Positions 1,301-61,899 of a DNA stretch of 64,000 nucleotides are shown in pieces. The position numbers and the translations under genes are program-made. The notes under the pieces are model-generated. The model searched no databases. It worked only from the letters and a program-made list of their open reading frames with translations, and was not told the DNA's origin. Origin of the DNA: Thuidium tamariscinum (taxonomy: Eukaryota; Streptophyta; Bryopsida; Hypnales; Thuidiaceae); NCBI GenBank assembly GCA_947034885.2, contig OX344757.2, forward strand, positions 5,270,001 to 5,334,000, written 5' to 3'. The first letter of the stretch is position 1; each line of letters starts with the position of its first letter.

Positions 1301-1625
1301 TCAAGGTCTGACTGGTGCAGCGCGTTCTCCAATACGTGTTGTGGCAGGAAGGAAAACTCGGAAGAAAATTCGGAAATAACTTATTACACTGAGACGACCA
1401 GGTAAACAAGCCGAGGCAGACCGGGTTCAATGGGAGTCCGGTAGAAGTCCTCTGACGTGTGAGCCGCCAAAGCGTTCGAGGCGCCGTTGTGGCTGGATAT
1501 AGATTGGGAAGCGACTCCCCGACCGCCTCCTTGCAAATTGTGAATTAGTCAACTCTTGTCTCTTAATACGCACGAACCTCAAAGGGCGGTGCGCGCCCCT
1601 GCCTGCCTCCTTTCCTATTCTCAAC
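1301..1625. other. GLP1 upstream region, no gene seen
   Basis: Moderately GC-rich DNA upstream of the GLP1 TATA box. The part up to about 1400 (GGCAGGAAGGAAAACTCGG) matches the GLP8 upstream region at 50280-50350. The part from 1425 to 1625 has short open frames but no recognisable protein. Confidence 0.5.
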
Positions 1626-18392: not shown

Positions 18393-18597
18393 CCCCACAA
18401 CTCAAACAATTGTCACAGCAGCAACCATTCCAATCGCAATCTTCAGCTTCCTTCATCAGCTCCGTGCACACCAGCACTCCGACTCCTGCAACTGATCCAG
18501 AAACCTCGACCTGCAAGTGATCGAACTCCGGCCTGGACTGAACCTTCAAACTCCACCGCGCAGCTCGAAGCGACTGATATCGAACTATTCAATCGGC

Positions 18598-21102: not shown

Positions 21103-21340
21103 GTGGGTATGGGACAAGTACATTATTAAGAACCTCTTATGGAAGGACTTGGCTACATGTTTTGGACTATTTGGAGGAATACTTAATTATCAAAAACTAA
21201 TACTTTCTCCTCTTTGTAGTGCCCTATGAAAAAATAGATTTTAAGTTTTTTCTATAAATCTCAACCTAACATATATTAGTCTAATATAGAAGTCTATGGA
21301 AGTTCTTTTCAAAATAATTTGTTTATTCTATACTAATGTT

Positions 21341-22098
21341 GGGTCATTGCAAGAAAGGCCATTCAAAAAGAGTAGCGTTTTTTACAATATTCATTTTTTC
21401 TTTGGGAGTACTTTAAAATTAGAAAAATAATTATATATATATATATATATGTTTCATATATATATATATATATTTTTAAGAAGAAGGTACCCTAAGAAGG
21501 AAAAATATAGAGAGATTTTCTAAGTAGGTGAACTAGAAAAATACAAAATATGATGAAAGTAGTTTTTGTTATTGTAATTTCACATTTTAATTTATAGAAA
21601 ATAGAGAAAGGAATTTTTTTTAAACTAAAAATTTTCCATTTGGCAAGAGTTGATATTGATGAGATTTCATCAAAAAAATTGATCTAAGAACCATCTTCAA
21701 TGTTCAAAAATTGCACGCAATGGAACTACGGATGTACTGTTTACACTCATGTGGAGGACATGAAATAATGAATTTTCAAATTTCCTTTGGTAGATACATG
21801 CTTCCCTATTATGCAAATAGACCATGAAAGTTTGAGCTCTAGATCATTAAATTTAGTGACACATAACATAGTGAAAACCCCTAAATATCAACTTGTGACA
21901 AATTAATGAAAACAATTTTTAAATATAAAATGATTTTTATTAATTTCTAAAAAATAAGGGATCTAATTGTCACAAATTTATACATGTTCAATAAAAATTT
22001 CATGTTCATTCAAATTGTGCTTCAAAAGTTATAGCAAAAAACAAGAGAACGGTTTCAATTGTAAATAGGAAATCAGTCATCCTTTCTTGCAATCACCC
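21341..22098. mobile_element. MITE of the GGGTGATTGCAAG family, left arm
   Basis: The ends are GGGTCATTGCAAG and CTTGCAATCACCC, flanked by TGTT at 21337-21340 and 22099-22102. The 758-bp interior is non-coding and contains an AT dinucleotide run near 21432-21470. It is present in both arms, so it predates their duplication. Confidence 0.85.
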
Positions 22099-22456
22099 TG
22101 TTGCAAGATTATAATATTTGAATTTTAAGAAAAACTTACAAAATTTCACCTTGCCCTAACTATTGGACGGGTGCAAATTACAAATGCCATGAAGAAATCT
22201 TTGGAGTTATTTGATAATATTATACATACAACTAATTCCAAGGTTTTTAGAATTTCTATATCAACAAATCATGAAGGATTTAATCTTAAAGGAATTTCAT
22301 TTATTTATTTTTTTGTATTTATTTTTTATTTTCATTAAGTCAAATAGAAATTTAAAATTTTTTCTTTAAATCAACATCCTCATTTGGACGATGGTGAAGT
22401 GTACACATGACATTAGAAGAAGACCCATATAGTCCTATGTACATTTTCTATTAGTA

Positions 22457-23199
22457 GGTGATTGCAAGAAAGACCTGCTGAAAAGTATAGCGTTTTATAC
22501 AGCATTCACATTTTTCTTTGGGAGTTTTGTATAAATAGTGAATCAATTTTTATAAAAATTAAAAAATATATTTGATGTATATACTTTTAAGAAGAGGGTA
22601 CCCTAGGAAGGAAAAGTATAGAAAAATTCTCTAAGTAGGAGAACTAGAAAAGTTTAGAATTTCATGAAAATTGTGACTTTCACTATAGTTTCACATTTTA
22701 ATTTGTAAAAAATAGGGATATTAATTTTTCTTAAAACTAAAAATTTTACATTTGGGAAGACTTTATAGTGAAGATATTTTATAAAAATAATGATCTAAAA
22801 ACCATCCTGATTGTTCAAAAATGCCCGTGCAAGGGAGGCCTGTTAGCACAGATGTAGAAGAAAGAGAATAATGATTTTTTAAATTTCCTTTACTAAAAAC
22901 ATGCCTACCTAGTGTAGGAATACAGTCTAAGAATATCATCTCTAAATCATTAATTTTAATTCCTCCCCAGTACTAAAAACCCCTAAACCGCAAAGTGTGA
23001 CAAATTAGCTAAATTTAAATTTAAATATAAAATGATTTTTGAAAATTTATGAAAAATGAGGTTTCTTATGAATATCAAGTTATCCATCTCTTATAAAAAT
23101 TTCAAATTAAAAGAGTTAATCCTTCAAAAGTTATAGCACATGACAACTTTGTCACTCAAAGTGTGACGCCAAATAGTACAAGTCTTTCTTGCATTCACC
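22457..23199. mobile_element. MITE of the GGGTGATTGCAAG family, in spacer
   Basis: The ends are GGTGATTGCAAGAAAGAC and CTTGCATTCACC. The interior is about 70 percent like 21341-22098 by eye. The target duplication is not clear, so the outermost base is uncertain. Confidence 0.75.
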
Positions 23200-24146
23200 T
23201 ATTATTGCAAGTTTACAATCTTTCTAGTGGATAAAATATTTCAGTCATCCTTGTTTGGTACATGATTTTTATATTTACTCAACGTCATATTTGATATTTG
23301 ATAATTTCTTAATTGATCTCAATGGAATTTAAGGTCAAGAATTCATTTCTAGTACTGTATTGACTTCTTGATAGGATTCTAAATGTGAAGTATAAAAATA
23401 TGAATGGATGAATGTAATTCTTGGATGTATATAAGGCTTTTTCACCATGTGGAAAAAAAGCCCCCCTTGAGTTGGACCAGTGGAGAGTGTATATGAGAGC
23501 CACCTAGTTTGCCTTCTAAGAAATGAACTCCTATAATGCTTTTTAGAATTTTTTTATTAAATAACTTCAGGTTAAAAAAAAAGCCCTCTAAATGACCTAA
23601 AAGAGTGTCCAAGCTACAATCTCCAATTAACCTCAATACATATTCTAAAAAGTAAGGATAACCTTGTAAGTCAAAATCTACCTAAAATTGACAATTAAGG
23701 CACCAAATGGTGTCTAATTTAGTCCTAAAAAGTAAATTCAGCACATGGCACTGTCAGACAAGCACCACAACTCTACATGCATTGATCCAAATGAATCCAT
23801 AATTCACCCTAAGTCCTAAGTTTTAAGACCACAACATTCATCCATTATTTTTTGGCAAATCAACACTTTTTTTTTTCTTTGAATTTCTTCAATTAAGCAT
23901 CCAAACCCTAAATTTTAAGGTAATTAAGACTATGCTTTTGCACTTGGTCCAAACCCTAAAAAATTAGCCTCCTATCCATGCATTCATACATGCAAAATTG
24001 TGCCCTAAATTCTCTCCAACAATAAATCCTACATACTAATTGAGACCACTTAATCAATGTTGCAAGACCAAAATTGATTGTAGTTAGCGTTATAATAATT
24101 TTAGCATGGTATTTAAGAAGACTACCTTGCAAAAAGAGCAAACATA
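23200..24146. other. AT-rich spacer DNA
   Basis: Part of the unduplicated spacer between the inverted arms. No gene or repeat boundary is recognised. Confidence 0.5.
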
Positions 24147-24424
24147 AGAGGATTTTTGGCCCTTGGAAGACCATTTCAGGGCTGTTCCCAAAAACTGTTC
24201 CCACTACTACAGATCAGCCTCTTGTTGGTCTGATTTTTAAATTAAATTTTTTTTTAAATTAAAAAAAAATCAGAATGTATTAAAAAGAAATAAAATGATT
24301 TAAAAAGAAATTAAAATTAATTAATTAATTAGTATTTTCTGACGTGGCAATTGCTCGACTACATCAACATAGCATTCCCAGCATTTGGGAACTTGCAGTC
24401 TTCTAAACCGACCAGAAATCCTCT
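24147..24424. mobile_element. 278-bp TA-flanked MITE
   Basis: The ends are AGAGGATTTTTGG and CCAGAAATCCTCT, flanked by TA at 24145-24146 and 24425-24426. The TA duplication and short terminal repeats fit a Tc1/mariner-type (Stowaway-like) non-autonomous element. Superfamily is an inference. Confidence 0.6.
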
Positions 24425-25110
24425 TATGAAACAAGGGCCACCAGTCCTACAATTGTGATAGAAGATCACCTTTGACTAGAATGTTTTTTACCATCTCAAT
24501 TTTTATCCAAATGGCCTAAGATTAGGCTTGTTAGAAGCTTGACTTGATCTTGCACTTGCTTACCAAAATTGAGCTTCAGAATCTTTGTGAAGCTCTTGAT
24601 ATGCAACTTCAAAGTCGTGGCTCCCTATTGCAATATAGCAAAATCTCCTCATACAAAATTAGTTGCCTTGACCTTGTCCAAATTCGGTGAGCCATGGATT
24701 TTCAAAAAGCTAACTTTGAGGTACACAACTTTTTTTAAATCTGGCTCCACCTAGTTCTCTATGCACTCACAATCCCCCATTAAAGTTGGAAGTCTAATTT
24801 CACTCAAGGTTCTCTTCTCTTTTTCAAGCAATTTTTCACCTAACGTGAAAACCTCCACTTTTTCACCCATCTTTTTCCATAATAAGGTAAGAGCTTACTT
24901 GACAAACTATCTAATTTGTTCTAATCCTATTCCATTTCCATCTTCTCCTTACCATGTTTCTATCATTTCTTTTATTGAATTCTTCACCAAACTTCCAAAA
25001 CACATCATACACTCAAAAGTGTGGGGGGGGGGGGGGGAAGAGAGAGATTGAAATATTAAATTTTTCTATGTCCAAACTCCAAAATGGGCTAGTCTTCTTT
25101 TTTTACTTTT
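24425..25110. other. AT-rich spacer DNA with a G15 run
   Basis: No gene recognised. An uninterrupted run of 15 G at 25023-25037 is notable in such AT-rich DNA and may also be a sequencing weak spot. Confidence 0.5.
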
Positions 25111-25839
25111 GGATGATTGCAAGACACACTTGTCCTATTCTGTATCACATTATGTGTGCTGATTTGTTTTTTAGCTATAACTTTTGAGTTTTGGCTTCAA
25201 ATGACTCAAGATTCACAGGAAAGGTACTCATGACTATCATACATATTCTCTAATTTTTTCATAATTTTCAAAAATAATTTACTATCCAAAAATAGACCTT
25301 GATTGAATGTCACACTTTAAAGTTTAGGGGGTTTCAGTGCTGAGGAGTACCTTTTCTTTTAATGATTTTGAGATGAAATTTGGATGAAATGGTCTTTTAG
25401 TACATTCTAGCTCTCCAGAAAAGGATTTAAGAAAATAGTTAATTTTATGTAGTGTGAAGTCTACAAAGTGAGTTTCTTTTTGCTTGTATTTTGAAATGTA
25501 TAAAATATTATTTTGGTTTTCTTTTTTGTGAATGACCATCTCCATAAAGTTGTTGCAAAATTGCTATTTTGTATTATTTTGTATTTACTTATTTTTACTA
25601 TTTTTTCGTAATTACAACATAAAGGTATGTATTTTCTTAAGGTTTGGGACTTTTCAAGTTCTTCTATTTAGAAAAAATTTCTATGCAATTCCTTTCATCT
25701 TGACGGTGTATACATAAGTCATATTTCTTGAAAAATTTTAAATTAGTTTTCTAATTTTAAAGTACTATTAAAGTTTAAAAAAAGTCATGAGTATTGTTGC
25801 AAAATGCAACAATAGTACAGGTGTTTCTTGCAATCTCGC
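25111..25839. mobile_element. MITE of the GGGTGATTGCAAG family, diverged
   Basis: The ends are GGATGATTGCAAGACACAC and GTGTTTCTTGCAATC. The interior matches 17130-17862 and 40600-41336. The end bases are mutated and the target duplication is uncertain. Confidence 0.7.
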
Positions 25840-26374
25840 TTTCATTTAGCTCTACTTTACTATTATTTTGCTAGTTTAAGGAAAAATATGCCAAATTAGT
25901 GAAAATTGCACTAATTTATTATAAAGCCACTAGTATAGAATAAAATTCCCTAAATAATGTAAAAGCTTATAAGTTATTCAAAAAATCCTATTTTAGTGTT
26001 TCTCTCACTATTTTAGTATTTCTTTCACTATTCTAATAGTAGTTTTGATTGTACTAACTTGTTTTGTGTTTTTCATTGTTATTATTATTTTGGTTTGTAG
26101 TGGTGTACTTCACAAATGCTACAAAGATCTATGCATAAATTTTCTTTGTGGCAATTTAAAGAAAAACTCTATTGAATACTCCAATCAAATGTTATGTTGC
26201 TTGAAGTTTTTTAGATTATATAGCAGGTAGTTTTAGGCAACTTGTGATTGTACTTCTAAGTTTTGCCAAATACTATAAAATTAACATGATATAGAAATAT
26301 AGTATACTTTTTTGGAGGAAAAATATTATGTCTGCTACAAAAATCTTATTCTCAATTCTTCTCACAGTTTGCTA
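25840..26374. other. AT-rich spacer DNA
   Basis: Ends at the inner edge of the right arm. A 61-codon open frame at 26045-26230 is hydrophobic, low-complexity and not supported as a gene. Confidence 0.5.
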
Positions 26375-26444
26375 GTCCAATAGTCAGGGCAAGGTGAAAT
26401 TTTGTAAGTTTTTCTTAAAATTCAAATATTATAATCTTGCAACA

Positions 26445-27202
26445 GGGTGATTGCAAGAAAGGATGACTGATTTCCTATTTACAATTGAAACCGTTCTCTT
26501 GTTTTTTGCTATAACTTTTGAAGCACAATTTGAATGAACATGAAATTTTTATTGAACATGTATAAATTTGTGACAATTAGATCCCTTATTTTTTAGAAAT
26601 TAATAAAAATCATTTTATATTTAAAAATTGTTTTCATTAATTTGTCACAAGTTGATATTTAGGGGTTTTCACTATGTTATGTGTCACTAAATTTAATGAT
26701 CTAGAGCTCAAACTTTCATGGTCTATTTGCATAATAGGGAAGCATGTATCTACCAAAGGAAATTTGAAAATTCATTATTTCATGTCCTCCACATGAGTGT
26801 AAACAGTACATCCGTAGTTCCATTGCGTGCAATTTTTGAACATTGAAGATGGTTCTTAGATCAATTTTTTTGATGAAATCTCATCAATATCAACTCTTGC
26901 CAAATGGAAAATTTTTAGTTTAAAAAAAATTCCTTTCTCTATTTTCTATAAATTAAAATGTGAAATTACAATAACAAAAACTACTTTCATCATATTTTGT
27001 ATTTTTCTAGTTCACCTACTTAGAAAATCTCTCTATATTTTTCCTTCTTAGGGTACCTTCTTCTTAAAAATATATATATATATATATGAAACATATATAT
27101 ATATATATATAATTATTTTTCTAATTTTAAAGTACTCCCAAAGAAAAAATGAATATTGTAAAAAACGCTACTCTTTTTGAATGGCCTTTCTTGCAATGAC
27201 CC
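26445..27202. mobile_element. MITE of the GGGTGATTGCAAG family, right arm
   Basis: Partner of 21341-22098. It is flanked by AACA at 26441-26444 and 27203-27206, the complement of the TGTT found in the left arm. Confidence 0.85.
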
Positions 27203-27440
27203 AACATTAGTATAGAATAAACAAATTATTTTGAAAAGAACTTCCATAGACTTCTATATTAGACTAATATATGTTAGGTTGAGATTTATAGAAAAAACTT
27301 AAAATCTATTTTTTCATAGGGCACTACAAAGAGGAGAAAGTATTAGTTTTTGATAATTAAGTATTCCTCCAAATAGTCCAAAACATGTAGCCAAGTCCTT
27401 CCATAAGAGGTTCTTAATAATGTACTTGTCCCATACCCAC

Positions 27441-28395
27441 AATAATGTATAGTGGGGTACCAATCAAAATGGTATTTTCGAATTCACAATGAAGAAAATT
27501 TTGACACTGCCAACTTTAATATCCTCTTGAGAGTTGAAAAATTGGCCTTGAAAAATTTTACTTTAAAATTTCTTTGGCAAGATTATTTTTAAGTCAATAA
27601 CGTGTGCCAAATTTCAAGGCCAAAAGATTTACCAAAAAAATACATTAAAAATCTACCAACATGTGTAGTTGGAAATTTTTTTTCCACTACTTTCAACTTT
27701 GACACCCTCCTAAGGATTGAATTCTTTTCTTTTGCCATGAAATTTTTGGCATAAAAAAACCTCAGTCTATGTTTGTAATATGTAAAAAAAATTTCAAGGT
27801 CAAAAGATTAATATAAAAAAAAATGTGAAAGCTACCAGTATGTGTAGTTTTGCAAAAAAATTCACAATTGCCAACTTTGACACCCTTCTAAAGGCTGAGA
27901 AATTGATTTTTTACCATGAATTTTATTTTCGTGAAATAAACTCTATGTTAATAACATATGCTTTAATTTTCAAGTTCAAAAGACTTACCTAGAAAAAAGA
28001 TATTCAAAAAAACAATTTCTCAACCCTAAGGAGGGTGTCAAAGTTGGCAATTGTGAAATTTTTTACAAAACTACACATGTTGGTAGCTTTCACATATCTT
28101 TTTTTATATTAATCTTTTGACCTTGAATTCTTTTTCACATACTACAAACATAGAAGTTGTTTGACTTGTTTCATGCCAAAATTTTCATGGCAAAAGAAAG
28201 AAAATTCAATCCTTGGGATTGTTGGGAGGGTGTCAAAGTTCAAAGTAGTGAAATTTTTTCCCAACTACACATATTGGTAGATTTTTAATATATTTTTTTT
28301 GTAAATCTTTTGGCCTTGAAATTTGGCACACATATTTTTGGCTTGAAAATAATCTTGCATGAAAAATTTCATGATAAAATACCAATTTTTCAAAC
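27441..28395. mobile_element. Foldback element FB2, right-arm copy, end deleted
   Basis: Same element as 20056-21102. The end next to the GLP flank is missing: sequence equivalent to about 20045-20150 is absent, and the join falls where both sides read GAGTTTGA / GAGTTGA, a short homology. Confidence 0.75.
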
Positions 28396-29165
28396 TCAGG
28401 ATTTCAGATACTAGACTAGCAACTTGCTATGAAAATCACATTTGCTTCGACGATTTACTGTGCAACTGAAGTTGTATTGAATTTTATGTGTTCCCATCTT
28501 GTGAAATTGAAGTACCTGATTACGCAAAATCATATCCAGGGATTTCACGTGAATGAAGATCAATGAGGCAGAAAACTAGCACAATCATCTTCCACTGGCC
28601 TTCTCAAAACAAAAATTTTAACCGCTGCTGAAAAATGCATACACATTTCACTCTTCTATTTGATTTGCTCCGTTTGCATCGTGGAAACCAATTAAATCTG
28701 TAACAGAACTATTTGTTGAAAAATACAGCTTCGGATCTCGGAGTAGAAAATGTGTGCACATGGCTTCACCTTCTAAATGCGTAACAAGGACTCTGAAATT
28801 TGAACAAATGTTGCACAGCCAAAACAAAAACAAAAACAAAAACAACTCCTACTTCGACCCATGCACTGGACACCGTGTTTATGAAATGGTAGCTGTGAAC
28901 CTGGTAATTCATTAAATGTTGTGCAACTAAGGCGGGTTCAATTGGCCCAAATGAAGGAATTCTTCACACAAGCTACCGAAGCTGCGGCGGGTCTTCGCTT
29001 CGACCAGGAACTCTGAGAACAATGTACAAAATTTAACTATCTAGCTTAATCAGAAGTCATCAGACCCTGTCTGGCTTCCAAAAGAATGGTGGTAGTATCA
29101 ATGGCTATACACGATGTTTCCAAAGACTTTGAGAGCTAAATCGGATGAACTATCAATCGATCGAT
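28396..29165. other. Conserved 3' flank of GLP5
   Basis: Inverted match to 19264-20050. No independent gene. A short open frame at 28648-28845 is the counterpart of one at 19590-19817 in the other arm and is judged chance. Confidence 0.7.
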
Positions 29166-29831
29166 TTACATGCGGAACTGCTTCTGGATCTGGTCCACGG
29201 TGTACTCGTTGATGCGGAACGCCTTCTCCAACACCTCGTCCTTGATGTCCGGAGTGAACAAAGCCGGAGCAATTTGCTGCACGCCGGGGTTCTGGCTGCT
29301 CAAAGCGGCGAAAGCCAAAGCGGGACCCTTGCCCACGTTCAGCTGGAAGTGCACCAGGCCCTTGGGGAACACGAACAGCTCGCCTTCCGTGATTGTGGTG
29401 GCGAACAAGGTGTTGTTGGTGTCCACAAAGCCCACGTACAGCTCGCCCTTGGCCAGGATGAGAATCTCGGTGGCGCGTGGGTGGGTGTGCGGAGGGTTGA
29501 TGCCGCCCTTGGCGAAGTCGATGCGAGCCGCGGAGATGCCCAAAGTGTTCAATCCGGGGAACTGCATGACGGTGGCGGGCGTGACTGCGGCTTTGTTGGG
29601 GTTGTTGGTGTTTCCTGGGTTCTTCAAGCCAGCGAACGTGAAGTCGTCCACGGAGACCTGATCGGCGGGCTTGCAGGTGAGTCCATTGATGGTGGTTTCG
29701 CTCTTCAAGTCTGCGACGCAGAAGTCCTGGAGCGGATCCTCGTCGGCTGCCATGGCGAGCATGGGCACCAGCGCCACGCTCATCAACACGGCCACGGTCA
29801 CCCACAAGCTTCTGCGGGTCATGATACCCAT
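29166..29831 (-). CDS. Germin-like protein, copy 5 (GLP5)
   Basis: This encodes a 221-residue germin-like cupin in the right arm, tail-to-tail with GLP4. Start MGIMTRRSLWV, signal peptide 1-28, C38 and C53, H115/H117/E122/H161 and the N139 sequon are all present. Distinct residues are E45 in LKSETT (G in the others), SVDDFTF like GLP6, and VMQF plus ATTITEG like GLP3. The two arms of the palindrome have therefore not stayed identical, and this copy seems to have taken short tracts from other family members. It belongs to the ILILAKGE subgroup. Function is as for the family, a secreted Mn-cupin. Confidence 0.95.
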   Translation of the reverse strand: MGIMTRRSLWVTVAVLMSVALVPMLAMAADEDPLQDFCVADLKSETTINGLTCKPADQVSVDDFTFAGLKNPGNTNNPNKAAVTPATVMQFPGLNTLGISAARIDFAKGGINPPHTHPRATEILILAKGELYVGFVDTNNTLFATTITEGELFVFPKGLVHFQLNVGKGPALAFAALSSQNPGVQQIAPALFTPDIKDEVLEKAFRINEYTVDQIQKQFRM

Positions 29832-30027
29832 TTCGGTTTTGGTCGCTTCGAGCTGCGCGGTGGAGTTTGAAGGTTCAGTCCAGGCCGGAGTTCGATCAAG
29901 TGCTTGCAGGTCGAGGTTTCTGGATCAGTTGTAGGAGTCAGAGCGGAAGTGTGCACGGAGCTGGTGGAGGAAGCTGAAGATTGCGATTGGAATGGTTGCT
30001 TCTGTGACAATTGTTTGAGTTGTGGGG

Positions 30028-43417: not shown

Positions 43418-44070
43418 CCGTAACGTACTGTCCATGGCCTTGCCTTTTGATCTTCTTGAAATTTGCTCTAAATTGAACAAAAAGTTAACATTTTCATGAG
43501 TTATATCAATTTTTGGAATTTGAAATATAGGATGTCAAAGTTCAAACTATCTGACATGTTACAAATGATAAAGGAAAGATTATTGTGATTTGAAGCCTTT
43601 GAATTCTCTTTTCATATATCAAATCTAAACTGAGGATAATCGAAAGATATGAATTTAAAGGGGATGACATGCATAACTCCAATCAATTTACTACTAAAAA
43701 TTGACAATCATAAGATATGAATTTAAAGGGCATGACATGCATAACCCCAATCAATTTACTATTCAAAATTGACAATCAAAAAATATGAATTTAAAGGGTA
43801 TGGCATATATATAACTCCAATCAATTTATTACTCAAAATCAACAATCAAAAGAAATGAATTTAAAGGGCATGACATACATAACTCCAATCAATTTACTAC
43901 TCAAAATCTATTTTAGAACATCTCAACTTTTTTAAATGAATTTTCAATAAGATTTTTCTTCCAGATCTAATCTAGTATAATTGAGGCTCATTTCTACAAA
44001 CCCTTGACACTAGAAAATCAAGATTTGCAATTGACTACCTTGCTAAAATCTTAAATAAAAAAATCATAAT
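43418..44070. mobile_element. Relic of the piggyBac-like MITE seen at 50457-51092
   Basis: TTAA at 43414-43417 is followed by sequence aligning with 50457 onward (CTTCTTGAAATTTG, ATTGAACAAAAAG). The unit that occurs once there is expanded to nearly four copies here. The right terminus is not resolved. Confidence 0.5.
43649..43912. repeat. Tandem repeat, unit about 70 bp, nearly four copies
   Basis: Each unit runs ATGAATTTAAAGGGCATGAC, then CATAACTCCAATCAATTTAC, then CTCAAAATTGACAATC. A single related unit is present at about 50728-50790. Confidence 0.85.
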
Positions 44071-47030
44071 TATTCATTTATGGCAAGTTTTGTTAAAATG
44101 GCAATTATTATGCAATTTTGAATTTTTTATAGTATAGCTTGGACTTTTTGAAATCTACACCTCTTTCTAAATGGTTTTGATTTTGATGCTGGACTTTTGA
44201 GCTCACATTACATAATGATTTATCTTGATTAAGAACCATTATTTTCTTCAAAGTTAAAAATTCAAATGCAAATCCTTTTCTTTTCCTTTTGACATCGTAA
44301 GAGAGGTGCAGTTACAGTGTTGAAGTAAAATGATAAAGTTATATCTTGACCATACACCCAATGTGAATAGTTTGTAATACTTCAAGTCTTCTTGCCATGA
44401 AATTTTTGTTCTACACATGGCATGTAATTTCAATTCATGGAAAATGCAAATCTAGAGATTTTGCGTTGTATTAGTTACATACTTGCCAACTTTTAGAAAT
44501 AAAGGAAGAATTCTCTACATAAAATCTAAAGTTGTCCACCTTATAGCCCCAAAAAATTTAGGTTGTAAAACAATTGATTTCAAGCACATGTTGATTGGAA
44601 AAAAAATATAACAAATGTAAGCAAATAAATCAAAGAACTAAATTCAGTGCCACTAATAAAAAGTTTTGGAAAATTACTCAAAAGAGAAAAGTGGGGAGGA
44701 AAGTTTGTATGTGTGGAAGATATATTTGAACAAAAAATACCAATTTTTTGCACAATGTCCACAATATCACCAGTATTACATTTGATTTTTACCTTATTTT
44801 TTTATTTTGAAATAAATTTTTAATCCAAGAGTAGATTTCAAATGTGAACATTCTAATACAATCATTTCTTAAAATTGTTACAATTTGATCAAAATGGACA
44901 TTATTTATATCTAAATTACATATTTTTAGAGAGGCAGTCTAGTAAAAGAGGAACTTTTATTTTCAAATTTTCAGATCTCTTTTTAGAACTTCTATCTAAT
45001 TTTTATGATTTCTATCTAGATCTATATAGAATACTGTGAAAACAACAAAATAAATCATTGTTTTTCAAATGCAATGGTTCTTACTTTGCACTAGCATTTG
45101 CATATATAAAGAACAAATTCAAAATAATCATAAAATAAAAATTCATTAAAAATTGCTAGTTATTGGTCCAAGGGGTGCACTCCCCGTTTCTTTGATGTCG
45201 ACGTGCAAATTAATGAAGGATAATTTTAATTGCCTTAGATCTAAATTTTATACAATTATTCAAAGTAAATGTGCATTCATATAATGGGCTTCTAGACTTT
45301 AGAAATAATGAAGGGTATACAAAAATACAAAATTTTATCAATTTCTTTTTTCTAAAGTAGCCCCGCCAAAATTCCCTTCTAAAAATTTGAACTTTTCGTA
45401 GTATACTTAGTATAGTATAAATTCATGAGTTGTACATTGAATTCACAAATGTGTAAGAATTTGTGGTTTACTAAGGGTTGACTAGAATCCCATGTGTTTG
45501 TTGTATAGGCAAATTTAAATTTGGATGAATGAACCCATAAATGAATGATATTCTCACTAGCCAAACACTTCCATTAGTTCAGTCAATGATTGAGTGGCAA
45601 GGTGAGTGGGCAATTGGGATTTAGTGAGGTTTCTTGAACGTTAAGGTTTTTGTTTACGGTAGCAGAGGTTTTTTGAATTTGCTTGAGAGATTTCAAGTTT
45701 GTGCTCGTATTTGCTTGAGAAATGTCAAATTCATATTCAAATTTGGTTTAGAATTTAGAAGGATCAGGAGAAGAATTCAGATGCTTACTATAACTATTTA
45801 TATATATGTCAATTGTTTGTATGAATTTTTACTATGTTGTATTTATAATGAACATAGGGTATACAAAATTTTAACTAAAAAATAGGGTATATGAAATAAA
45901 CACCCTTTAGAAATTTAGGTAAAGTAAGCCTTCCATAAATCTCAAAAAATCACCTACATAGCCCCTAAATAATAGGGGCTTGTTCACAAGTGATCAATGA
46001 ACTTTCCGAATACCGTACGTTGAGGGCAGATTCGTCACACCCTGGACAAAATCTTTTCTTTTTGCTTGGATTTCCCTTTCATTCTCTCTATTTAGAATTT
46101 TCAAGATTTGGTTCATTGTGATTGGGAATATTTTATTAATTGAAGCTATGGCCTTCTTGCTTTACCACATTGCAAGCTCTGCATGATGGAAGCTTTACAA
46201 AATCTTGTTTGATAAGGCTAAAATAAGGCAAGCTTTCCAAAATTTTACTCTACTCAGGCTTAATCAAGGCTTTGCTATTAGTTTTGAGTAATGAAGGCCA
46301 ATACAATCAATTCTCAATCTAATGTTAAGGCTTTACAATCAAGCCTTAAGGTTTTACAACATAATATATGGAATATTATTTTATATTATTTTATGATTAT
46401 TTGAAACACATCGGTAATATTATCTTTCAATTTTCATCAAAATCTTTTATAAGATTTCAATTTATTCTTGTTAATATTTTTTATACTATTCAAATATGTT
46501 ATACTATAATTTCTAAAAATTTCATTACATGCCATATTTATTTATTTTTGAATTAATATTTGACGAATCTAACCCGAGTGTAGGGTAGTGTACCGCCGAG
46601 TTATTGGCCAATTATTAGTAAATAAATTATATATTTTTTAAAGATTTTTATATTTTTTTAAAGATTTAAAATTATAATAACTCTTTGAAGAAAAATGTAG
46701 GAAAGTCATATCAAAATTAGCTCCAAAAATCTAAAATTTTCACCATATATGTATACAATTTTAGTTTGGATTCTCATTATATAAAAAACAATTTTTTATC
46801 TCTATATAATAAAAAATCAATGGACATAATTGATTATAAGTTTTTTTGTTCAAATTGTACTAATGTACATGATCCAACTAACATACAAATCTTTCAACAT
46901 TTCAAATTAGAACAAAAAATAGATTCAATAAACTTTATTTCATTAAGTGAACTCCAAAATGAAAAATAGATTCACCTTTATGGAAAGATTTCAAGTCACA
47001 GAAAAGGAGTTAGAGGTATCCAATAAAATA
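44071..47030. other. AT-rich intergenic DNA
   Basis: About 3 kb with no supported gene, RNA or element end. Short open frames (for example 45634-45885 and 46766-46969) are AT-driven and show no domain. Confidence 0.5.
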
Positions 47031-48158: not shown

Positions 48159-49375
48159 AAATCAATTACAAGTATTTTCCAACCATCCAACAATTGCTGT
48201 TGATAAAAAGCAACCGACAATGAAATTATGGCAAAAGAGAGGGTGCAAGTCTTGGAATTGTGTACCACGCCTGCTTGAATGCCTAGATTTTGCACCAGGC
48301 ACTGTTCATTGAACACTGTAGAGTGTAGACTTGGCTCCAGATATTGTTCAACATTGAAATTCGGTACGTCTGGACCTTGGAGTGAGACTCAATCTTTACT
48401 GACACTTCCAGAACACAGTTCCGAAATACAGGAATAATAGTAAGACGAATATCCTGTTAGCACAAGAACTGTTTCATTATCTGCTTCAACTAAGCGCTTG
48501 ATATTTCAATGTTTGCATAATCAACATCAATTTCGTTGAATGGGCCGAGACATTCAATTACTTTGGCGCGGTTGAAACCAAAATCTAAGTACCTCTCCTA
48601 CTTTTCACGAGTCACGAGTCATTTTTTATCCCCGAAAATCATTGTAAGGATAAGATCCCACACGACAACCAAGTGGATCAACTATTTATTTCTGCATGCA
48701 ATGGCAAGATACTGTATGGAGCCAATATTTTGAGAACACCAATTTTAGGGCTCAATTGGGAGATGCATAGTTCATTCTTCTGGACAATGTCCAAGGAACA
48801 ACATTCTGGAATCCTCTTTTGACAACCAATATGATTCAATTTTTTCTTTATTCGCACAAGATGAACAAACAGAATTTAGTGCAACTGCAGTTGCACATGA
48901 AATGACATGGCCACATAATGCAAAATCATGACCAGGGGTTTCAAGTGAAGATCAATAGTAAGGGCAGAAAACTAGCACAATCATCTTCTACTGGCCTTTT
49001 CAAAGTAGAAATTTAAACCTTCGAAGTTTGAACACTGCTCTGCGATAAAAACAAACAAACTCGTACATCGACCCATGCACTACTGGACACCGTTATTAAG
49101 AAATGGTAACTGTGAACCTGGTATTTCATTAAATGTTGTGCAACTATGGCGAGTTTAATTATCCCAAATGAAGGAACTCAGTCTTCACTACAGAAGCTGC
49201 GTCGACTTTTCGACCAGCGATTCTGAGAACAAGGAACAAAATTTGTCTATCTGGCTAAATCAGAAGTCATCAGACTTTGTCAGGCTTCCAAAAGAATGGT
49301 AAGAGTATCAATGGCTATATACGATGTTTCCAAAGACTTTGAGAAATAAATCGGATGAGCTATCAGTCGATCGAT
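48159..49375. other. Intergenic DNA and conserved 3' flank of GLP8
   Basis: From about 48780 to the gene it matches the inverted 3' flanks of GLP4 and GLP9. It contains the uninterrupted sequence (TTTAAACCTTCGAAGTTTG, near 49012-49030) that corresponds to the piggyBac insertion point beside GLP9. Confidence 0.7.
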
Positions 49376-50253: not shown

Positions 50254-50456
50254 CATCTCTTGGCGTGACTGGTGACGCGCGTTCTCCAAGACGCGGGGTG
50301 GCTGGAAGGAAAACTCGGAAGAAACTTCGGAAAGAACTCTTACTCTGAGACGGACGACCACTCAAGGGGGGCCCGCAGGGCCCTTTGCAGCGACGGGCCG
50401 GGGTCAAATGACTCAAATGGAAGTCCAAGCCAGGTGGAATGGATTTCACCCATTAA

Positions 50457-51092
50457 CCCCTAAATGCCCAAGGCCTGTTTTGAGCTTCTTGGAATTTGGT
50501 CTAAATTGAACAAAAATCCAACATTTTGATAAGTTGAATCAATTTTTCTGAATTGTAACCATGCAAATTCAAAGTAGACGTGTTAGAGATGACATAAGAA
50601 AAGAAAACACAACAATTTCACTTATGGATTAAAAGATTATAATGTTTGATCATGAGAGTGTAAAAACTATGAAAATCTTTGAGCTCTCTCTTTGCATGTC
50701 AAATCTAAAAAGTTGGTCACCAAAAAAATATGAGGTTGAAGGGCCTAACAAGCATAACCCCAATCAATTTTTGGCTTCTCAAAATCTACTCTACAATTTT
50801 TTTAAATGAATTTTTAGTGTGATTTTGTCTCTAAGATCTAGTGTATTTGAGGCTCATTTCCAAGAGTCCTTAACACTATGGAATGTGAAGATTGCAATGG
50901 GTACCCTTGCATGAAATCTTGAATAGAGAAATCATGATCATTCATTTTCAAAATCGGATTATTGATGCTAAAACTATACTTCAAAAATAATCTTCCAAAA
51001 ATATAAACTACTAAAAATAGAAATTTGGTAAGGTTTTATTTAACTTCAAAGTTTCTTCAACACCACTTTGGGGTGCCTTGGGCATTTAGGGG
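50457..51092. mobile_element. 636-bp piggyBac-like MITE, TTAA flanks
   Basis: The ends are CCCCTAAATGCCCAAGGC and the exact complement GCCTTGGGCATTTAGGGG. It is flanked by TTAA at 50453-50456 and 51093-51096. The interior is AT-rich and non-coding. The terminal CCCCTAAA and the TTAA target match the full element at 56344-61431, although the inner parts of the terminal repeats differ. Confidence 0.9.
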
Positions 51093-51096
51093 TTAA

Positions 51097-55318: not shown

Positions 55319-55984
55319 ATGGGAATCATGGCCCGCAGGAGCTTGTGGGTGACCGTGGCCGTGTTGATGAGCGTGGCGCTGGTGCCCATGCTCGCCATGG
55401 CAGCCGACGAGGATCCGCTCCAGGACTTCTGCGTCGCAGACTTGAAGAGCGGAACCACCATCAACGGACTCACCTGCAAGCCCGCCGACCAGGTCTCCGC
55501 GTACGACTTCACGTTCGCTGGCTTGACGAAACCAGGAAATACCAACAACGCCAACAAGGCCGCAGTCACGCCCGCCACCGTCCTCCAGTTCCCCGGATTG
55601 AACACTTTGGGCATCTCCGCGGCCCGCATCGACTTCGCCAAGGGCGGCATCAACCCCCCGCACACCCACCCGCGCGCCACCGAGATTCTCATCCTGGCCA
55701 AGGGCGAGCTGTACGTGGGCTTTGTGGACACCAACAACACCTTGTTCGCCACCACAATCAAGGAAGGCGAGCTGTTCGTGTTCCCGAAGGGCCTGGTGCA
55801 CTTCCAGCTGAACGTGGGCAAGGGCCCCGCTCTGGCTTTCGCCGCTCTGAGCAGCCAGAACCCCGGCGTGCAGCAAGTTGCCCCGGCTTTGTTCACTCCG
55901 GACATCAAGGACGAGGTGCTGGAGAAGGCGTTCCGCATCAACGAGTACACGGTGGACCAGATCCAGAAGCAGTTCCGCATGTAA
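55319..55984 (+). CDS. Germin-like protein, copy 9 (GLP9)
   Basis: This encodes a 221-residue germin-like cupin starting MGIMARRSLWV. The frame stays open for 124 codons upstream, but that stretch contains the TATA-like box and has no domain, so it is taken as 5' flank. The signal peptide is 1-28, the disulfide pair C38 and C53, the ligands H115, H117, E122 and H161, and the sequon N139. It is of the GLTKPGNTNNANK, ILILAKGE subgroup, with QQVAPALF where the other copies have QQIAPALF. Its 3' flank is split by the piggyBac element 356 bp after the stop codon. Function is as for the family. Confidence 0.95.
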   Translation: MGIMARRSLWVTVAVLMSVALVPMLAMAADEDPLQDFCVADLKSGTTINGLTCKPADQVSAYDFTFAGLTKPGNTNNANKAAVTPATVLQFPGLNTLGISAARIDFAKGGINPPHTHPRATEILILAKGELYVGFVDTNNTLFATTIKEGELFVFPKGLVHFQLNVGKGPALAFAALSSQNPGVQQVAPALFTPDIKDEVLEKAFRINEYTVDQIQKQFRM

Positions 55985-56343
55985 ATCGATCGACCGATAG
56001 CTCATCCGATTTGGTTCTCAAAGTCTTTGGATAAATTAAGCCATTGATAATTTCATACTCTTACCATTCTTTTGGAAGCCAAACAGAGTCTGATGACTCC
56101 TGATTTAGCCAGATAGACAAATTTTGTTCATTGTTCTCAGAATCGCTGGTCGAAAAGTCGACCCTGCTTCTGTAGTGAAGACTGAGTTCCTTCATTTGGG
56201 ATAATTAAACCCGCCAAAGTTGCACAACATTTAACGAAATACCAGGTTCACAGTTACCATTTCATAAACCAGTGCATGGGTCGAAGTACGAGTTTTTTTT
56301 TATTTTTTTATCGCAGAGCAATGTACAAACTTCGAAGGTTTAA
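55985..56343. other. 3' flank of GLP9 up to the piggyBac insertion
   Basis: Matches the 3' flanks of GLP4, GLP5 and GLP8 up to TTCGAAGGTTTAA. The match resumes at 61432 after the transposon. Confidence 0.8.
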
Positions 56344-56357
56344 CCCTGAAACGCCGG
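56344..56357. repeat. Left terminal repeat of the piggyBac element
   Basis: CCCTGAAACGCCGG, adjacent to the TTAA duplication at 56340-56343. Confidence 0.9.
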
Positions 56358-57347
56358 GCGGGTCACCGCGTGCTCAAAGTGCTGTCGGGACCTACTACCG
56401 CGAGGAAGAAGAGAATCTCATGCAGCAACTACAGATGAGGCTACAGTGATGAATCGAGTGTGCAGGCCTGAGGTAGTGGCGAATGTGAGGCACAGGACCG
56501 TCGAGAATCACAGAAAAGAGCAGGGGCTCGGAATCTTTGGCATGATTACTGCCGAGGTTTGAGCTTGTCCTCATGCGGGCAGAGGTCTAAATTAGCTAAA
56601 ATCATGGACTCAAGGAATGACACGGAAGATTCAGATGCTCGAAATGGAAGGACCGTGGAATAGCAAGTGGCACATGAGTTGAAAGTCAGAATCTCCGCAT
56701 GAAAATGCAAGCTGTAAGCCTTGTAATTACATAGCGTCACTATACAAGAAAAAACAGAACAGTATCCTCATACTACGGCATGGGTGTCCCTCTGCAAGGA
56801 AAACGACGGAATTTAGCCATGGGTGTACAGCTGTGATGTAGAAGTCGACGTGAAACAAGTAGGAATTGTTGAGTACAACAAAGGTGATTGAATCCGCTGG
56901 GGAAATCACACCACAGTGGTTGACGCTGTGGGCAGGCAAGAGAACGAACGGGCTGGCAGCTCCACATCCTCGGGCACAACTGTAGCACTGTTGCGGGCTT
57001 CGGGCAGGCAGCTGACAGTGCCTGCAGAGAAGCGTGTGGCCCGGTGGTGACCTGACGACGCTGGCAGGTCTTGGAAGCCCAACCGCCAGCCTATTCTTCC
57101 GCGCGCTGGGACTTGGAGGTTGCAGACCTTCAGCAACTTCAGCGTTCGTCACAGCATGACATGTGCCACAGAGAGTGATGTAGGACAAGGTAGGGAACGT
57201 CTTGGAAGTCCAGAGAAATAGAGCTTCCCAGAAGTGAAAGTAAAAACCTATAGAATGTGCCGAGTACTGTACATGCAGATGCTACATATGAAACTTGAGA
57301 TCTATACTTTTTTTTTTGAAACATGCTGATGGTGGATACAGAGAAAG
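56358..57347. other. 3' non-coding part of the piggyBac element
   Basis: About 1 kb between the left end and the transposase stop codon. A Cys-rich open frame at 56727-57188 (minus) has no recognisable domain and is not called as a gene. Confidence 0.6.
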
Positions 57348-60300
57348 TCACCAGTGCGTGCTCCAGTAGCAAGCTCCCTTACAAACATGTGCATGGCATC
57401 CTGGACAAGCTTGATTTGTGCGTTGTCCACACACGATGCAATTCCCTCTTTTTGTGCCCATACTCTTCGTACCGTGGACTGCTGCAACATAGGGTGCTCG
57501 TTTGGAGAATCCATGAGTGCGTCCACTCCATTTCGCCACGAGCTCCTTCGCCAACTGCAACTGAAAAGATAAGTGCGTCATGGGCTCCTCCATGAACCGA
57601 AAACTGATGTCACTATGCACAATCCAAGCATTACAGATGGTTGTGTCTAATAAGTACGAAAACAAACGATGCCACCATTTGTGGCTCCTTGTGAGACATG
57701 AATATAAGCCTCTCAATTGATCTGCTGTGTCCACACCCCTCATATTCTCCGTGTATTGCAGATGCATGGGTCCTGTGATAACTTTTTTCTTTTTCCCATG
57801 AAATCTGCGGTACACAAACTGGCGAGTTCTAGGTGCTGATTTCGCCTCTGCATGCGTGGATAGGAGGACCACTGCATTGCGATCCTTCCACACTGAACAA
57901 CAAATGCGACCTTCCTGGTGCATACGGTAATCAATCCAGCCAAAATCTTGGTTTTTTGTGGCATCCTTCGCATACATAGATCGTGGGACATACTTCCTAT
58001 TGGCTTTGAGTGTTCCCGTCGCCATAATCCCCACATCAAGTAAGTCCAGAAACAAGGGCACGGATGTGAAGAAATTATCGGTCGTGACAATATGACCTTT
58101 GCCTCCGAGGTCACTCATGAGATGCTTGACCACATGCCTGCCTTGCAAACCCTCTCCCTTTCCACTACGCTCTGGAAAGGATTGCATCATGGTCTCCATG
58201 GCATCGCTATCGTCAGAAGAGGAGGAATTATCATGTGGATTGCCAAATTTACCACAGTACACATTGAAATTCCATACATACTTTGAAAGAGCGTCTGCAG
58301 CTACCCATATTTTCAAACCGAAGCGCACAGGTTTTTTAGGCATGTACTGGCGAATTGGTGAGTACTTGCCTTTGTACATCACCATGCTTTCATCCACTGT
58401 CATCTGCTGGTTGGGGAACCAGAAGCTACGAAAAGCACTGCTGACCGCATCCAATAACCACCTGACCTTGTGCAACTTGTCATACAAAGGACTGTCACGG
58501 TCTTGGACTTCCTGTGGGGCAATTGCCAAATGCAGACAACGTGTGAGGCGTTCAAATCTATCTCGTTTCATGACCTGCCCTATTACTGGACAGCTGAATA
58601 GAGCCTCCGTTCTTGACCAGTAAAGGCGACGGTTGGGGAGTTTTTTTATCCCCATTCGCAGGTGAATGCTCAAGAAAGCTCCAAGCTCCGGAACAGTAAG
58701 CGGATACCAGTCCTGTCCTCCACGTGTCTGCCCTTTCTTCTTCACAACCTCTGATGCATATAAATTCGTCTCTCTGACAATCCTTCTCAACATTTTGGGC
58801 GACCAAAATTTATGGAACAAGCCAAGCACTGAGGGCAGGCGGCCATAAGGATGGGTACAGCCTGGAGTGGGGCCAGTGAAAGGCAATGCATTATCCTTGT
58901 AATGTGGCACGCCAGGTAGCCAAGTCTCTGGTGCAAAACGAGACAACAGAGGGTCCACCTGCTTCCCTGATTTCTTGCGAGTACTTTGATCTTTGCGTTT
59001 ACTCCTCTGACGTGCCTTAGATTGAAGCAATCTTTTCCGTGCATCCAGCCAGTCCTTCCCTTTATACCATGAATCACTACTGGAATCAGCGGACCCGCCC
59101 ATGTCAGCTTCGTTCTGAACGTGACCGTTATGGTCTGTTCGAAAATGGCTTGCAGTACCCGCGCTCCCGCCCGAATGAGGTCCGCCTTCCTCAGCTGGAG
59201 CTCTCCTTCTTCTTCGTTGCGGTGGATTACTAGCGGCCATATCAATCTCTGCGTCCGCTAGCATTCGACCTTGCTGTCGCTTTTGATTGTTGCGAATGAC
59301 GCCGGACCTTGTACTTCCGCGTCTATTACAGTTCTCAGTGGATGCAGGTGCATGGCGTCGATGCCGTGGAGGTCGCGGTCTCCCCGCTGCAACGAATGCA
59401 CCCTCGGACAATGTGTCCTCCGAGTCTAGATCATGCTCACTTGCAGGTCCATGAGCGGTCGTTGTAGCACCGATCTGCCTTCCCGAATCGACGTCCGTAT
59501 CAGCATCAGTGGACACACCGGAGGTGGACGTCGTACCTTCATCGATGTCAAAGAAATCGTCAGCAGAGGAGGGGTGGCCGTCATAGGGTTCATCAGGTAC
59601 GTCGTCACTTCCTGATTCCTCATGAAGTCTAGCTGTTGAGGTCGATGCTTGAGCGCCTGTAGGGTTCATGGGTTTCCGGGTACGGGGAGGAAGAACAGCA
59701 CTGGGACGGAGCACTGCCCCCGCACACATTTCCTCGATGTGGCCATCCTCGTACCTCAAAACTAGAAATTTCTGCTGGCTAGTTGGGTGGATTCCCTCCG
59801 CAAGAACATGCGCATTTGTGTACACGTCGATGTCGACATCTCCGTCATCATGAACGAGCCCTCTCTGGACGGAGACTACTTCTAAGTGAATGATGCTATT
59901 ATGCGACGGTTGAATGTCAGCATGCGATTCGTGGCTCACCTCAGTTGACATTGTTGTTGTCGCAGGCGCGGTCGGTGCTGGAGTCACACATGCCGAGGAC
60001 GAGCCGAGCACCGTCGTAAGCGGCGGACAACTGCTCCGGGTTGATTCGGCCGTTTCTCCGGGTCTTTCTGATCCCTTGTCGACGTCGATCGCTCCGGCGG
60101 TCATCAGCGGATTGCGCCTGAGTCGGGGTGCTGGTGCTTCCTTCAACGGCTCGTTGATCGCTCCGGTTGACATCGACGGACTGCGCCTGAGTCGGGGTGC
60201 TGCTGCTTCCTTCAGCGGCTCGTCCATCTGCTCCGGCGGTACTGACGGGAAATTGGGACTGCCGACTGGTCCTGCACGTGATTCTTTGCGCCTCGACACT

Positions 60301-60377
60301 CCCTTGCGTGCTGGTGCTGGCCCGCCTTGCATTCGTGCTAGTCGTTTCATGCTCCTCATCGACGCCATGCTCGTCAT
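57348..60377 (-). CDS. piggyBac transposase, 1009 residues, intact
   Basis: Transposase of the piggyBac family (DDE superfamily). It excises and inserts the element at TTAA by hairpin cut-and-paste. The core lies at about residues 508-925. Catalytic acidic residues are read as D662 (TVDESM), D767 (TTDNFFTS) and D883 (RGVDTADQ), with D886 as the extra conserved Asp. The C-terminal 30 residues form a Cys/His cluster (C980, C983, C991, C994, H995, H997, C999, C1003, H1008), the family's DNA-end-binding zinc module. No stop or frameshift interrupts the frame. Residues 1-480 are an unusually long extension: low-complexity acidic and Arg-rich stretches, a duplicated EPLKEA-PRLRR motif (53-64, 76-87) and a compact segment near 160-225 with VLRYEDGHIEEM that resembles Tudor/chromo-like folds by eye only. 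The start at 60377 is the first ATG in frame. A 5' exon is possible. Confidence 0.92.
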   Translation of the reverse strand: MTSMASMRSMKRLARMQGGPAPARKGVSRRKESRAGPVGSPNFPSVPPEQMDEPLKEAAAPRLRRSPSMSTGAINEPLKEAPAPRLRRNPLMTAGAIDVDKGSERPGETAESTRSSCPPLTTVLGSSSACVTPAPTAPATTTMSTEVSHESHADIQPSHNSIIHLEVVSVQRGLVHDDGDVDIDVYTNAHVLAEGIHPTSQQKFLVLRYEDGHIEEMCAGAVLRPSAVLPPRTRKPMNPTGAQASTSTARLHEESGSDDVPDEPYDGHPSSADDFFDIDEGTTSTSGVSTDADTDVDSGRQIGATTTAHGPASEHDLDSEDTLSEGAFVAAGRPRPPRHRRHAPASTENCNRRGSTRSGVIRNNQKRQQGRMLADAEIDMAASNPPQRRRRRAPAEEGGPHSGGSAGTASHFRTDHNGHVQNEADMGGSADSSSDSWYKGKDWLDARKRLLQSKARQRSKRKDQSTRKKSGKQVDPLLSRFAPETWLPGVPHYKDNALPFTGPTPGCTHPYGRLPSVLGLFHKFWSPKMLRRIVRETNLYASEVVKKKGQTRGGQDWYPLTVPELGAFLSIHLRMGIKKLPNRRLYWSRTEALFSCPVIGQVMKRDRFERLTRCLHLAIAPQEVQDRDSPLYDKLHKVRWLLDAVSSAFRSFWFPNQQMTVDESMVMYKGKYSPIRQYMPKKPVRFGLKIWVAADALSKYVWNFNVYCGKFGNPHDNSSSSDDSDAMETMMQSFPERSGKGEGLQGRHVVKHLMSDLGGKGHIVTTDNFFTSVPLFLDLLDVGIMATGTLKANRKYVPRSMYAKDATKNQDFGWIDYRMHQEGRICCSVWKDRNAVVLLSTHAEAKSAPRTRQFVYRRFHGKKKKVITGPMHLQYTENMRGVDTADQLRGLYSCLTRSHKWWHRLFSYLLDTTICNAWIVHSDISFRFMEEPMTHLSFQLQLAKELVAKWSGRTHGFSKRAPYVAAVHGTKSMGTKRGNCIVCGQRTNQACPGCHAHVCKGACYWSTHW

Positions 60378-60783
60378 CCACGCCGTGCTCCACTTTAGGA
60401 AAAGGGAAAATTCGCTCTCTCAGTGCTCTGTAGACTTCAGCAGAGAATCCGCGGGCATGACCCTCTGGTCGCTGCGAAATCCAACCCAAAATGCGTGAAG
60501 CCCACGCGCACCACAATGACCTCAAATTCTGTGGCGATCTGTCAAAATGAAAAGCAGGAGTACTATCCTGAGGTAGTTTGGGGAGACTGATGAGGTAATT
60601 CTCATCTAACATGGACATTATGTATCGCACTTGCCACATGGAAGCATTGTGCTCCGTCAGTAGATGTGATGCTATAATGCAAGCATCAGTGGTACACCAA
60701 CTAGGATGTGCATGAGGTAGCGGAAGATGGTCAAATTTTTTTTTGGTGCTGAGTCTCGGCATTCCTATCGCTACTCTCTTCAA
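59941..60783 (-). CDS. Overlapping 280-residue open frame in the piggyBac element
   Basis: This frame begins 406 bp upstream of the transposase ATG and overlaps its first 437 bp in another reading frame. Residues 1 to about 145 are of mixed composition with Trp, Cys and His (HPSWCTTDAC, MWQVRYIMSML, WCAWASRILGWI), unlike chance AT- or GC-driven frames. The rest is low-complexity and antiphase to the transposase. It may be the first exon of the transposase, joined by splicing: TTTTCCCTTTTCCTAAAG just before the transposase ATG resembles an acceptor. It may also be a separate small protein, or chance. No family is recognised. Confidence 0.4.
   Translation of the reverse strand: MKRVAIGMPRLSTKKKFDHLPLPHAHPSWCTTDACIIASHLLTEHNASMWQVRYIMSMLDENYLISLPKLPQDSTPAFHFDRSPQNLRSLWCAWASRILGWISQRPEGHARGFSAEVYRALRERIFPFPKVEHGVDDEHGVDEEHETTSTNARRASTSTQGSVEAQRITCRTSRQSQFPVSTAGADGRAAEGSSSTPTQAQSVDVNRSDQRAVEGSTSTPTQAQSADDRRSDRRRQGIRKTRRNGRINPEQLSAAYDGARLVLGMCDSSTDRACDNNNVN
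60087..60240. repeat. Tandem repeat in the transposase 5' coding region
   Basis: Units of 69 then 70 bp built on CTCCGG, GCGCCTGAGTCGGGGTGCTG and CTTCCTTCA-CGGCTCGT. It encodes the repeated EPLKEA-PRLRR in the transposase frame and EGS(S/T)STPTQAQS in the overlapping frame. The third unit is partial. Confidence 0.85.
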
Positions 60784-61417
60784 TTCGTGATGAATTGTTC
60801 AACAGCGGAACTCATCGATTTCAGTTCACTTCCTACTGCAACATCAATCAAAGATAACGATGACCTATTTCCAATCGGTGCAACAACAGAAGCGCTTCAT
60901 GTTTGAGTTCGAAGAAGGCGGCAGCACTGTTTTGATCAGTAGACCGTAGGGACGAGCGATAACTCCAGGCCATGCATGCGGCGGCGGCGACGCAAAAATT
61001 CCAGCCATGGGCTCGTTTGTTACTGGATCTGCCTTCCTGTCACCTCTGTGACACACTGAACTCTGTCAACAGGGCCCGCCACAGCGCTGACAAGAAAGTC
61101 GGGCAGCTTTGTCTGACCACGTTCTCCTCCACCTTCTCTCTCCCTGGGCAGCACTCATAACTGTGAACAAATTCTTTTTCACCTTCCCAAACAAATATTC
61201 GGTCAGGGTGCGAACACTCTTTGCAAGCGTGTCCTCTCCCGTTTTCATTACAGCAATCAATATCTTGTTTACAAAAACGACTGCGCTACTCTACTGACAA
61301 CGCGTACATCTCCCTAACTGGACCTACCATGCTCTTAGTATTAATGCGGATGAAACTTCTTCTCCAACAATCATCTACACAGTAGATTCTTCATCGAAAC
61401 GCCACAAATTGGCGCTG
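60784..61417. other. 5' non-coding part of the piggyBac element
   Basis: About 630 bp between the upstream open frame and the right end, expected to hold the transposase promoter. I could not identify a convincing TATA box. Confidence 0.5.
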
Positions 61418-61431
61418 CCGGCGTTTAGGGG
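61418..61431. repeat. Right terminal repeat of the piggyBac element
   Basis: CCGGCGTTTAGGGG, adjacent to the TTAA duplication at 61432-61435. Confidence 0.9.
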
Positions 61432-61899
61432 TTAAATTTGAACTTTGAAAAGGCCAGTAGAAGATGATTGTGCTGGTTTTCTGCCCTATTGATCTTCACT
61501 TGAAACCCCTGGTTGTGATTTTGCATTATTTGGCCATCTCAATTAATGTGCAACTGAAGTTGCAATGAATTCGAGGTGTTCATCTTGTGAGAAAAAAGTT
61601 GCAGATATACTAGTTGGGTTTATTTTTGAGTTCCAAGTTAGTAGTAGGTGAGTGGGTAGCCCGTCTTGGTGCCGTTGGTGGGTAACTGTCAAGGGTCCAA
61701 CTTCCTATTAGGTTGTCAAGTTGGATTATATTTTCACCCACTGATAAGAATGCTAGGAGTCCTAGCCAAATGGATTGTATTTTATTATTTATTATTTGGA
61801 GTGTTAAATTATGTGAGAGTTTTTGTGATTAATTGGGAATGAAGTTTTTGCAGATGGTCAATTTTTATTTTATTTATTTTAACTTTTTTCTATTTTTTT
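61432..61899. other. Displaced remainder of the GLP9 3' flank, then AT-rich DNA
   Basis: 61432-61590 continues the GLP 3' flank (GAAAAGGCCAGTAGAAGATG, TTGATCTTCACTTGAAACCC). Beyond this no gene is seen. Confidence 0.7.

Follow-up and report, generated by a model that had tools for sequence, protein, structure and literature searches.

The stretch of DNA analysed here, hereafter the window, is 64,000 nucleotides long and comes from the moss Thuidium tamariscinum (assembly GCA_947034885.2, contig OX344757.2, positions 5,270,001 to 5,334,000 of the forward strand); all positions given below are counted from its first letter. A piggyBac element of 5,088 bp lies at 56344..61431, with boundaries that are common to 11 copies in the genome, and carries on its minus strand an unbroken transposase open reading frame (ORF) of 1009 codons at 57348..60377, the start codon of which is putative. 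It is bounded by TTAA target-site duplications at 56340..56343 and 61432..61435, and on its left it adjoins the germin-like gene GLP9 (55319..55984, plus strand), which is convergent with the transposase. The original prediction, made from the letters alone, had described the exact TTAA duplications, matching ends that start with CCC and an uninterrupted transposase with all its catalytic aspartates and a terminal Cys/His module, and all of these features stand.

The left terminal inverted repeat, CCCTGAAACGCCGG (56344..56357, plus strand), and the right one, CCCCTAAACGCCGG (61418..61431, minus strand), agree at 12 of their 14 terminal bases when the latter is read on the other strand, and both termini follow the pattern CCC..AAACGCCGG. 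Within the window, two TTAACC...GGTTAA pairs match at no fewer than 11 of the 14 bases of their ends, namely the 5,088-bp element and a miniature element of 644 bp. With up to four mismatches allowed the total is three, the third being weak; in 40 Markov-resampled windows the mean was 0.275 pairs and the maximum one. No subterminal repeat of note is shared between the two ends of the element, nor did we find a longer repeat common to both. A 15-bp palindrome (CGCCA-ATTTG-TGGCG, 61400-61414) lies at bp 18-32 from the right end, and a palindromic repeat is described at bp 17-33 in the piggyBac of Trichoplusia ni, in the available portion of PMC7351741. The moss palindrome is only suggestive, since arms of at least five occurred in 208 of 4000 control windows, and the best arms at the left end are of four.

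The Pfam profile PF13843 (DDE_Tnp_1_7) matches the transposase at 5.7e-79 over positions 4-349 of its 349, which places the DDE catalytic domain at 57624..58823 on the minus strand. Residues D662, D767 and D883, whose codons have their first bases at 58394, 58079 and 57731 on the same strand, align to D268, D346 and D447 of piggyBac, given as its catalytic triad in the part of PMC7351741 available, so that the DDD triad is kept. Nine Cys and His are found in the last 30 residues (980, 983, 991, 994, 995, 997, 999, 1003 and 1008), forming a C-terminal module at approximately residues 980-1008 (57351..57440, minus strand), and in alignment they line up with those of the relatives P0004-P0006, P0008 and P0011. 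The best sequence match in the PDB is the piggyBat transposase of the bat Myotis lucifugus (9c0f, 3.2e-27), and the piggyBac chain was also matched. A structure model of residues 460-1009, built from 29 aligned sequences, has a mean predicted local distance difference test (pLDDT) value of 86.2, and when it was compared with the PDB using Foldseek the best hits were piggyBac (6x67, 2.0e-27) and piggyBat (9c0f), with Tn5 far behind.

The moss element thus shares with T. ni piggyBac (6x67, 6x68) the TTAA target, the CCC-starting ends, the DDD triad, the C-terminal Cys/His module and the predicted fold, in which the two proteins are 21% identical in the fold alignment. It differs in its moss host, in its size of 5.1 kb and in the long N-terminal part of its 1009-codon ORF; moreover, the cysteine-rich domain of T. 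ni piggyBac binds a 19-bp internal repeat, of which the moss element shows at most a suggestive counterpart in the right-end palindrome. The piggyBat protein has the same predicted fold but belongs to a mammalian host and is shorter (a chain of 578 residues), and its end motifs, as far as they are given in the accessible part of PMC11707139, differ from those of the moss element. The working mechanism is that of the known piggyBac superfamily: the transposase would bind the CCC..AAACGCCGG ends and cut them via TTAA hairpins, as does that of T. ni piggyBac, and the excised element would then insert at another TTAA.

Further evidence comes from the rest of the genome, a 363,211,507-base assembly of 19 contigs in which the window lies on contig 9. 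A whole-genome search with the element as query, for which 40 of 109 candidates were scored, returned 11 full-length copies including that of the window (positions 1-5088 at about 100%), spread over contigs 1, 2, 5, 8 and 9. Eight of the 11 are identical over 5,096 bases, both TTAAs included, and the other three differ from this common sequence by 1, 1 and 2 bases, so that any two copies differ by 0 to 3. The four changes are 61098 G->A, 56463 C->T, 57805 C->G (codon 858) and 60763 T->C, the last two occurring in one copy. None of the 11 copies has an interrupted ORF, and in ten the ORF is unchanged, the sole coding difference being the missense change at codon 858 in copy L020. Each copy is flanked by TTAA left and right, and the 500-bp flanks of the 11 gave no mutual matches at an expect value (E) of 1e-5. 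An exact search with the left 18-bp end found 11 places genome-wide, all of them at these copies, and seven more with one mismatch allowed, while the reversed pattern used as a control had no matches. The prediction had called the element apparently complete, read its intactness as a sign of recent arrival or activity, and proposed a search for other copies with near-identical ends; the ten further full-length copies, which lie at different TTAA sites and depart from the common sequence by two bases at most, bear out both its completeness and its recent activity.

That the element has moved in the past is shown by one sequence having been inserted at 11 TTAA sites that are unrelated to each other, and what we observe is an intact family that has undergone a very recent burst. 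The identity of eight copies at every base could also be produced if the assembler had placed a single element several times, but each copy has its own flank as well as TTAA on both sides, three carry single-base differences and the flanks at GLP9 rejoin to a real paralogous site, which together make an artefact of this kind very unlikely. Still less credible is that we are dealing with a domesticated transposase gene comparable to the vertebrate PGBD genes; the long intact ORF and the conserved catalytic residues would suit such a gene, yet the element is present eleven times with its ends complete and its TTAA duplicated, which refutes domestication as the main reading. From the fold, the residues and the ends we infer that the family's own transposase moved the copies. 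Another family's enzyme could have mobilized all 11 in trans, the ORF in the window not being the working one, as the genome contains many other intact piggyBac ORFs and the N-terminus of this one is uncertain. We regard this as improbable, given that the ORF is open in every copy and unchanged in ten of the 11 and that the related families carry other ends.

The paralogous empty site proposed in the original prediction was also recovered. When the flanks of the element are joined, they align across the junction to the reverse complement of the 3′ flank of the germin-like gene GLP8 with 85.7% identity over 530 columns, gaps included, and a single TTAA is found there at 49013..49016 (minus strand). 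Because piggyBac excision can be footprint-free (PMC7351741, in the portion available), an empty site could, taken by itself, have been left by an excision. Between the GLP flanks, however, the difference is about 14% with gaps counted, against 0 to 3 bases between copies of the element, and the insertion is therefore far younger than the GLP duplication. The possibility of contaminant DNA, raised in the same prediction, is answered by the match of both flanks to the GLP8 flank, by the moss-like germin-like genes and by the presence of copies on five contigs of one assembly. Indeed, among the best 120 of the 498 protein matches to the germin-like neighbour, the closest are unnamed proteins with 90-94% identity, and the closest named organisms are the mosses Ceratodon purpureus (78%), Barbula unguiculata (75%) and Physcomitrium patens (70%); a longer protein of Sphagnum compactum, with 60% identity, scored higher than those of the other named mosses.

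Four changes in 55,968 bases amount to a divergence of 7e-5 per site. Plant mutation rates are about 7e-9 per site per generation, and the burst would therefore have an age of the order of ten thousand generations, an estimate that would be lowered by assembly errors and raised by polishing that makes copies alike.

Taken together, we consider the element an autonomous cut-and-paste DNA transposon of the piggyBac superfamily, residing in the nuclear genome of the moss and belonging to a family that has very recently multiplied to 11 full-length copies, with a probability of roughly 0.85. Several points weigh against this. Only 40 of the 109 candidates were scored, and short decayed pieces could be missed; polishing of the assembly could make near-identical copies look identical; and the first ~150 residues of the ORF are without support from relatives and overlap another open frame. 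Even P0002, which among the three closest relatives reaches furthest towards the N-terminus, begins to align at about residue 150. We considered as an upstream exon the overlapping frame, a 280-codon ORF at 59941-60783 on the minus strand, but it had no Pfam matches at E 1 and no protein relatives at E 1 among 977 candidates, and is probably non-coding. In its N-terminal part the transposase ORF contains a 69-bp tandem repeat of 2.3 copies (60083-60239), where three frames are open. As far as sequence can tell, the transposase protein may well be made and the copies may still be mobile, and present activity is likely.

The genome harbours many other elements of this kind. We found at least 116 piggyBac transposase matches (659 candidates seen), of which 74 are without an internal stop, 11 of these being the family of the window; from the 63 that remain, 40 were fetched and translated for phylogenetic analysis. 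In the resulting tree of 67 rows, which was midpoint-rooted and had five long branches flagged, these 40 resident transposases, that of the window and nine database proteins (P0001-P0008 and P0013) form one clade (100/100), and the 17 rows outside it include ticks, insects, a shrimp, a nemertean, a frog and a manatee. The same split had come out of an earlier, quickly built tree of 78 rows, in which the transposase of the window was flagged for its odd residue composition. Within the clade this transposase falls in an 11-row subclade (100/100) made up solely of sequences from this genome. The nearest sequences from outside this genome are the metagenome proteins P0001-P0003, which share the 100/100 clade with it and are 63-68% identical over 77-88% of the query region; they are partial proteins from contigs of 5-7 kb. 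Among the 104 protein-database relatives there is no plant in the roughly one quarter that bear a name.

This lineage holds a diversity of piggyBac elements, several families of which are young. Among the 41 resident transposases there are seven other groups, each of two to four members, with at least 97% protein identity. One of them, represented by L062 and L063, has 5,094 bp in common at 99.7% and resembles the family of the window in being TTAA-bounded and young, in its CCCC ends and in its similar size, but it falls in another subclade of the tree and has other inverted ends (CCCCTCACCGCC), with an ORF of 1212 codons. Another family (L021, L008 and L009) has two oppositely oriented copies on contig 8, separated by about 7 kb, and a third on contig 1; the contig 8 pair is 99.9% identical over the 4.1 kb fetched, and the contig 1 copy is 99.7% identical.

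Recent arrival and recent activity are separate claims, and what the copies show is recent activity only. As to how the burst began, there is about an even chance that one resident copy stayed intact and multiplied recently. The resident piggyBac matches, the grouping of 41 sequences of this genome and nine relatives in a single clade, the seven other groups of near-identical proteins and the family at 99.7% DNA identity all favour such a reactivation, against which stands that no older member of the family was found, either among the scored matches or with the left-end search. The other 29 of the 40 scored matches have 67-71% identity and cover parts of the transposase only, and we found among the 40 no truncated, internally deleted or intermediate copies of the family of the window. 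It is somewhat less probable, at a little under even odds, that the family is a recent immigrant, brought in through horizontal transfer or introgression with another moss as a possible donor, and that it expanded immediately on arrival. This would account for the absence of intermediate or decayed copies among the matches scored and for the restriction of the exact left end to the 11 intact copies, and it agrees with the guanine-plus-cytosine (GC) content of the element, which is 0.507 against 0.363 for the window, the comparison used here. However, the nearest transposases on the tree, those of the 11-row subclade, are from this same genome, and related families with similar ends are present, as seen in the seven places at one mismatch. 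We thus lean slightly towards reactivation of a resident copy.

A viral or bacterial origin was also considered and set aside. The end pattern of the element was found in the viral contigs L001 and L002, with one lone match each, which we take as chance; the ORFs of L001 and the inspected stretch of L002 are unlike such an element. A search of viral contigs with P0001 gave no match, and a pattern drawn from a six-row alignment (A3) matched 39 stretches in viral and 31 in prokaryote contigs with no confirmed relatives among them. Giant-virus transposases are less like the structure model, the best having an E value of 1.3e-15 and a template modelling (TM) score of 0.41.

PiggyBac is a main tool of genome engineering and has been studied mostly in animals. 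Recent jumping of a transposon of this type is unfamiliar in land plants, and our search of the open-access literature, with subscription papers and repeat databases outside its scope, did not turn up any moss in which an intact or active piggyBac had been described. In the available text of the papers retrieved, PiggyBac is among the superfamilies found in all groups studied, including land plants (PMC4438587), 1,230 PiggyBac repeats are counted in a fern (PMC6890710), PiggyBac is named among the superfamilies of angiosperm miniature inverted-repeat transposable elements (MITEs; PMC10004981) and is listed among plant superfamilies (PMC10794571), and piggyBac-like elements are said to occur in plants among others (PMC10813416, PMC8086355). 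In the accessible part of a moss genome paper (PMC10619864) only the word "piggybacking" matched, and that of PMC9860276 held nothing on plant piggyBac. Plant piggyBacs in print are, within these portions of text, list entries and repeat counts. More tentatively, and with the odds rather against us, we suggest that this is a native piggyBac family jumping today in a land plant, that its clade is separate from the animal piggyBacs compared and has diversified in this moss lineage, and that the family entered the genome or awoke so recently that decayed copies are not found. If this is true, a young and complete moss family would provide a transposase native to plants together with its own natural ends, and the wealth of piggyBac families in one genome would allow study of the ways in which plants silence or tolerate such elements. 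With eleven insertions mapped to known sites, whether the element still moves can be tested directly.

Between 422 and 55984 the window carries nine germin-like genes, some in each orientation. An Rfam scan of the window returned no RNA family. The 644-bp miniature element of piggyBac type (50453..51096, both TTAAs included) adjoins GLP8 and is AT-rich (GC 0.315). It has perfect 18-bp inverted ends, CCCCTAAATGCCCAAGGC, which resemble the right end of the 5,088-bp element, and its interior has no match to that element; no empty site for it was found in the window. A diverged relative of the miniature element at 43445-44079 holds about four 68-bp tandem repeats at 43638-43907. Lastly, a large inverted duplication at 18591-29838 represents either a recent event or an assembly effect; complementarity is 100% over the 1,888 nt of the arms at 20281-22168 and 26375-28262, and 98% between the portions at 18591-19776 and 28653-29838.

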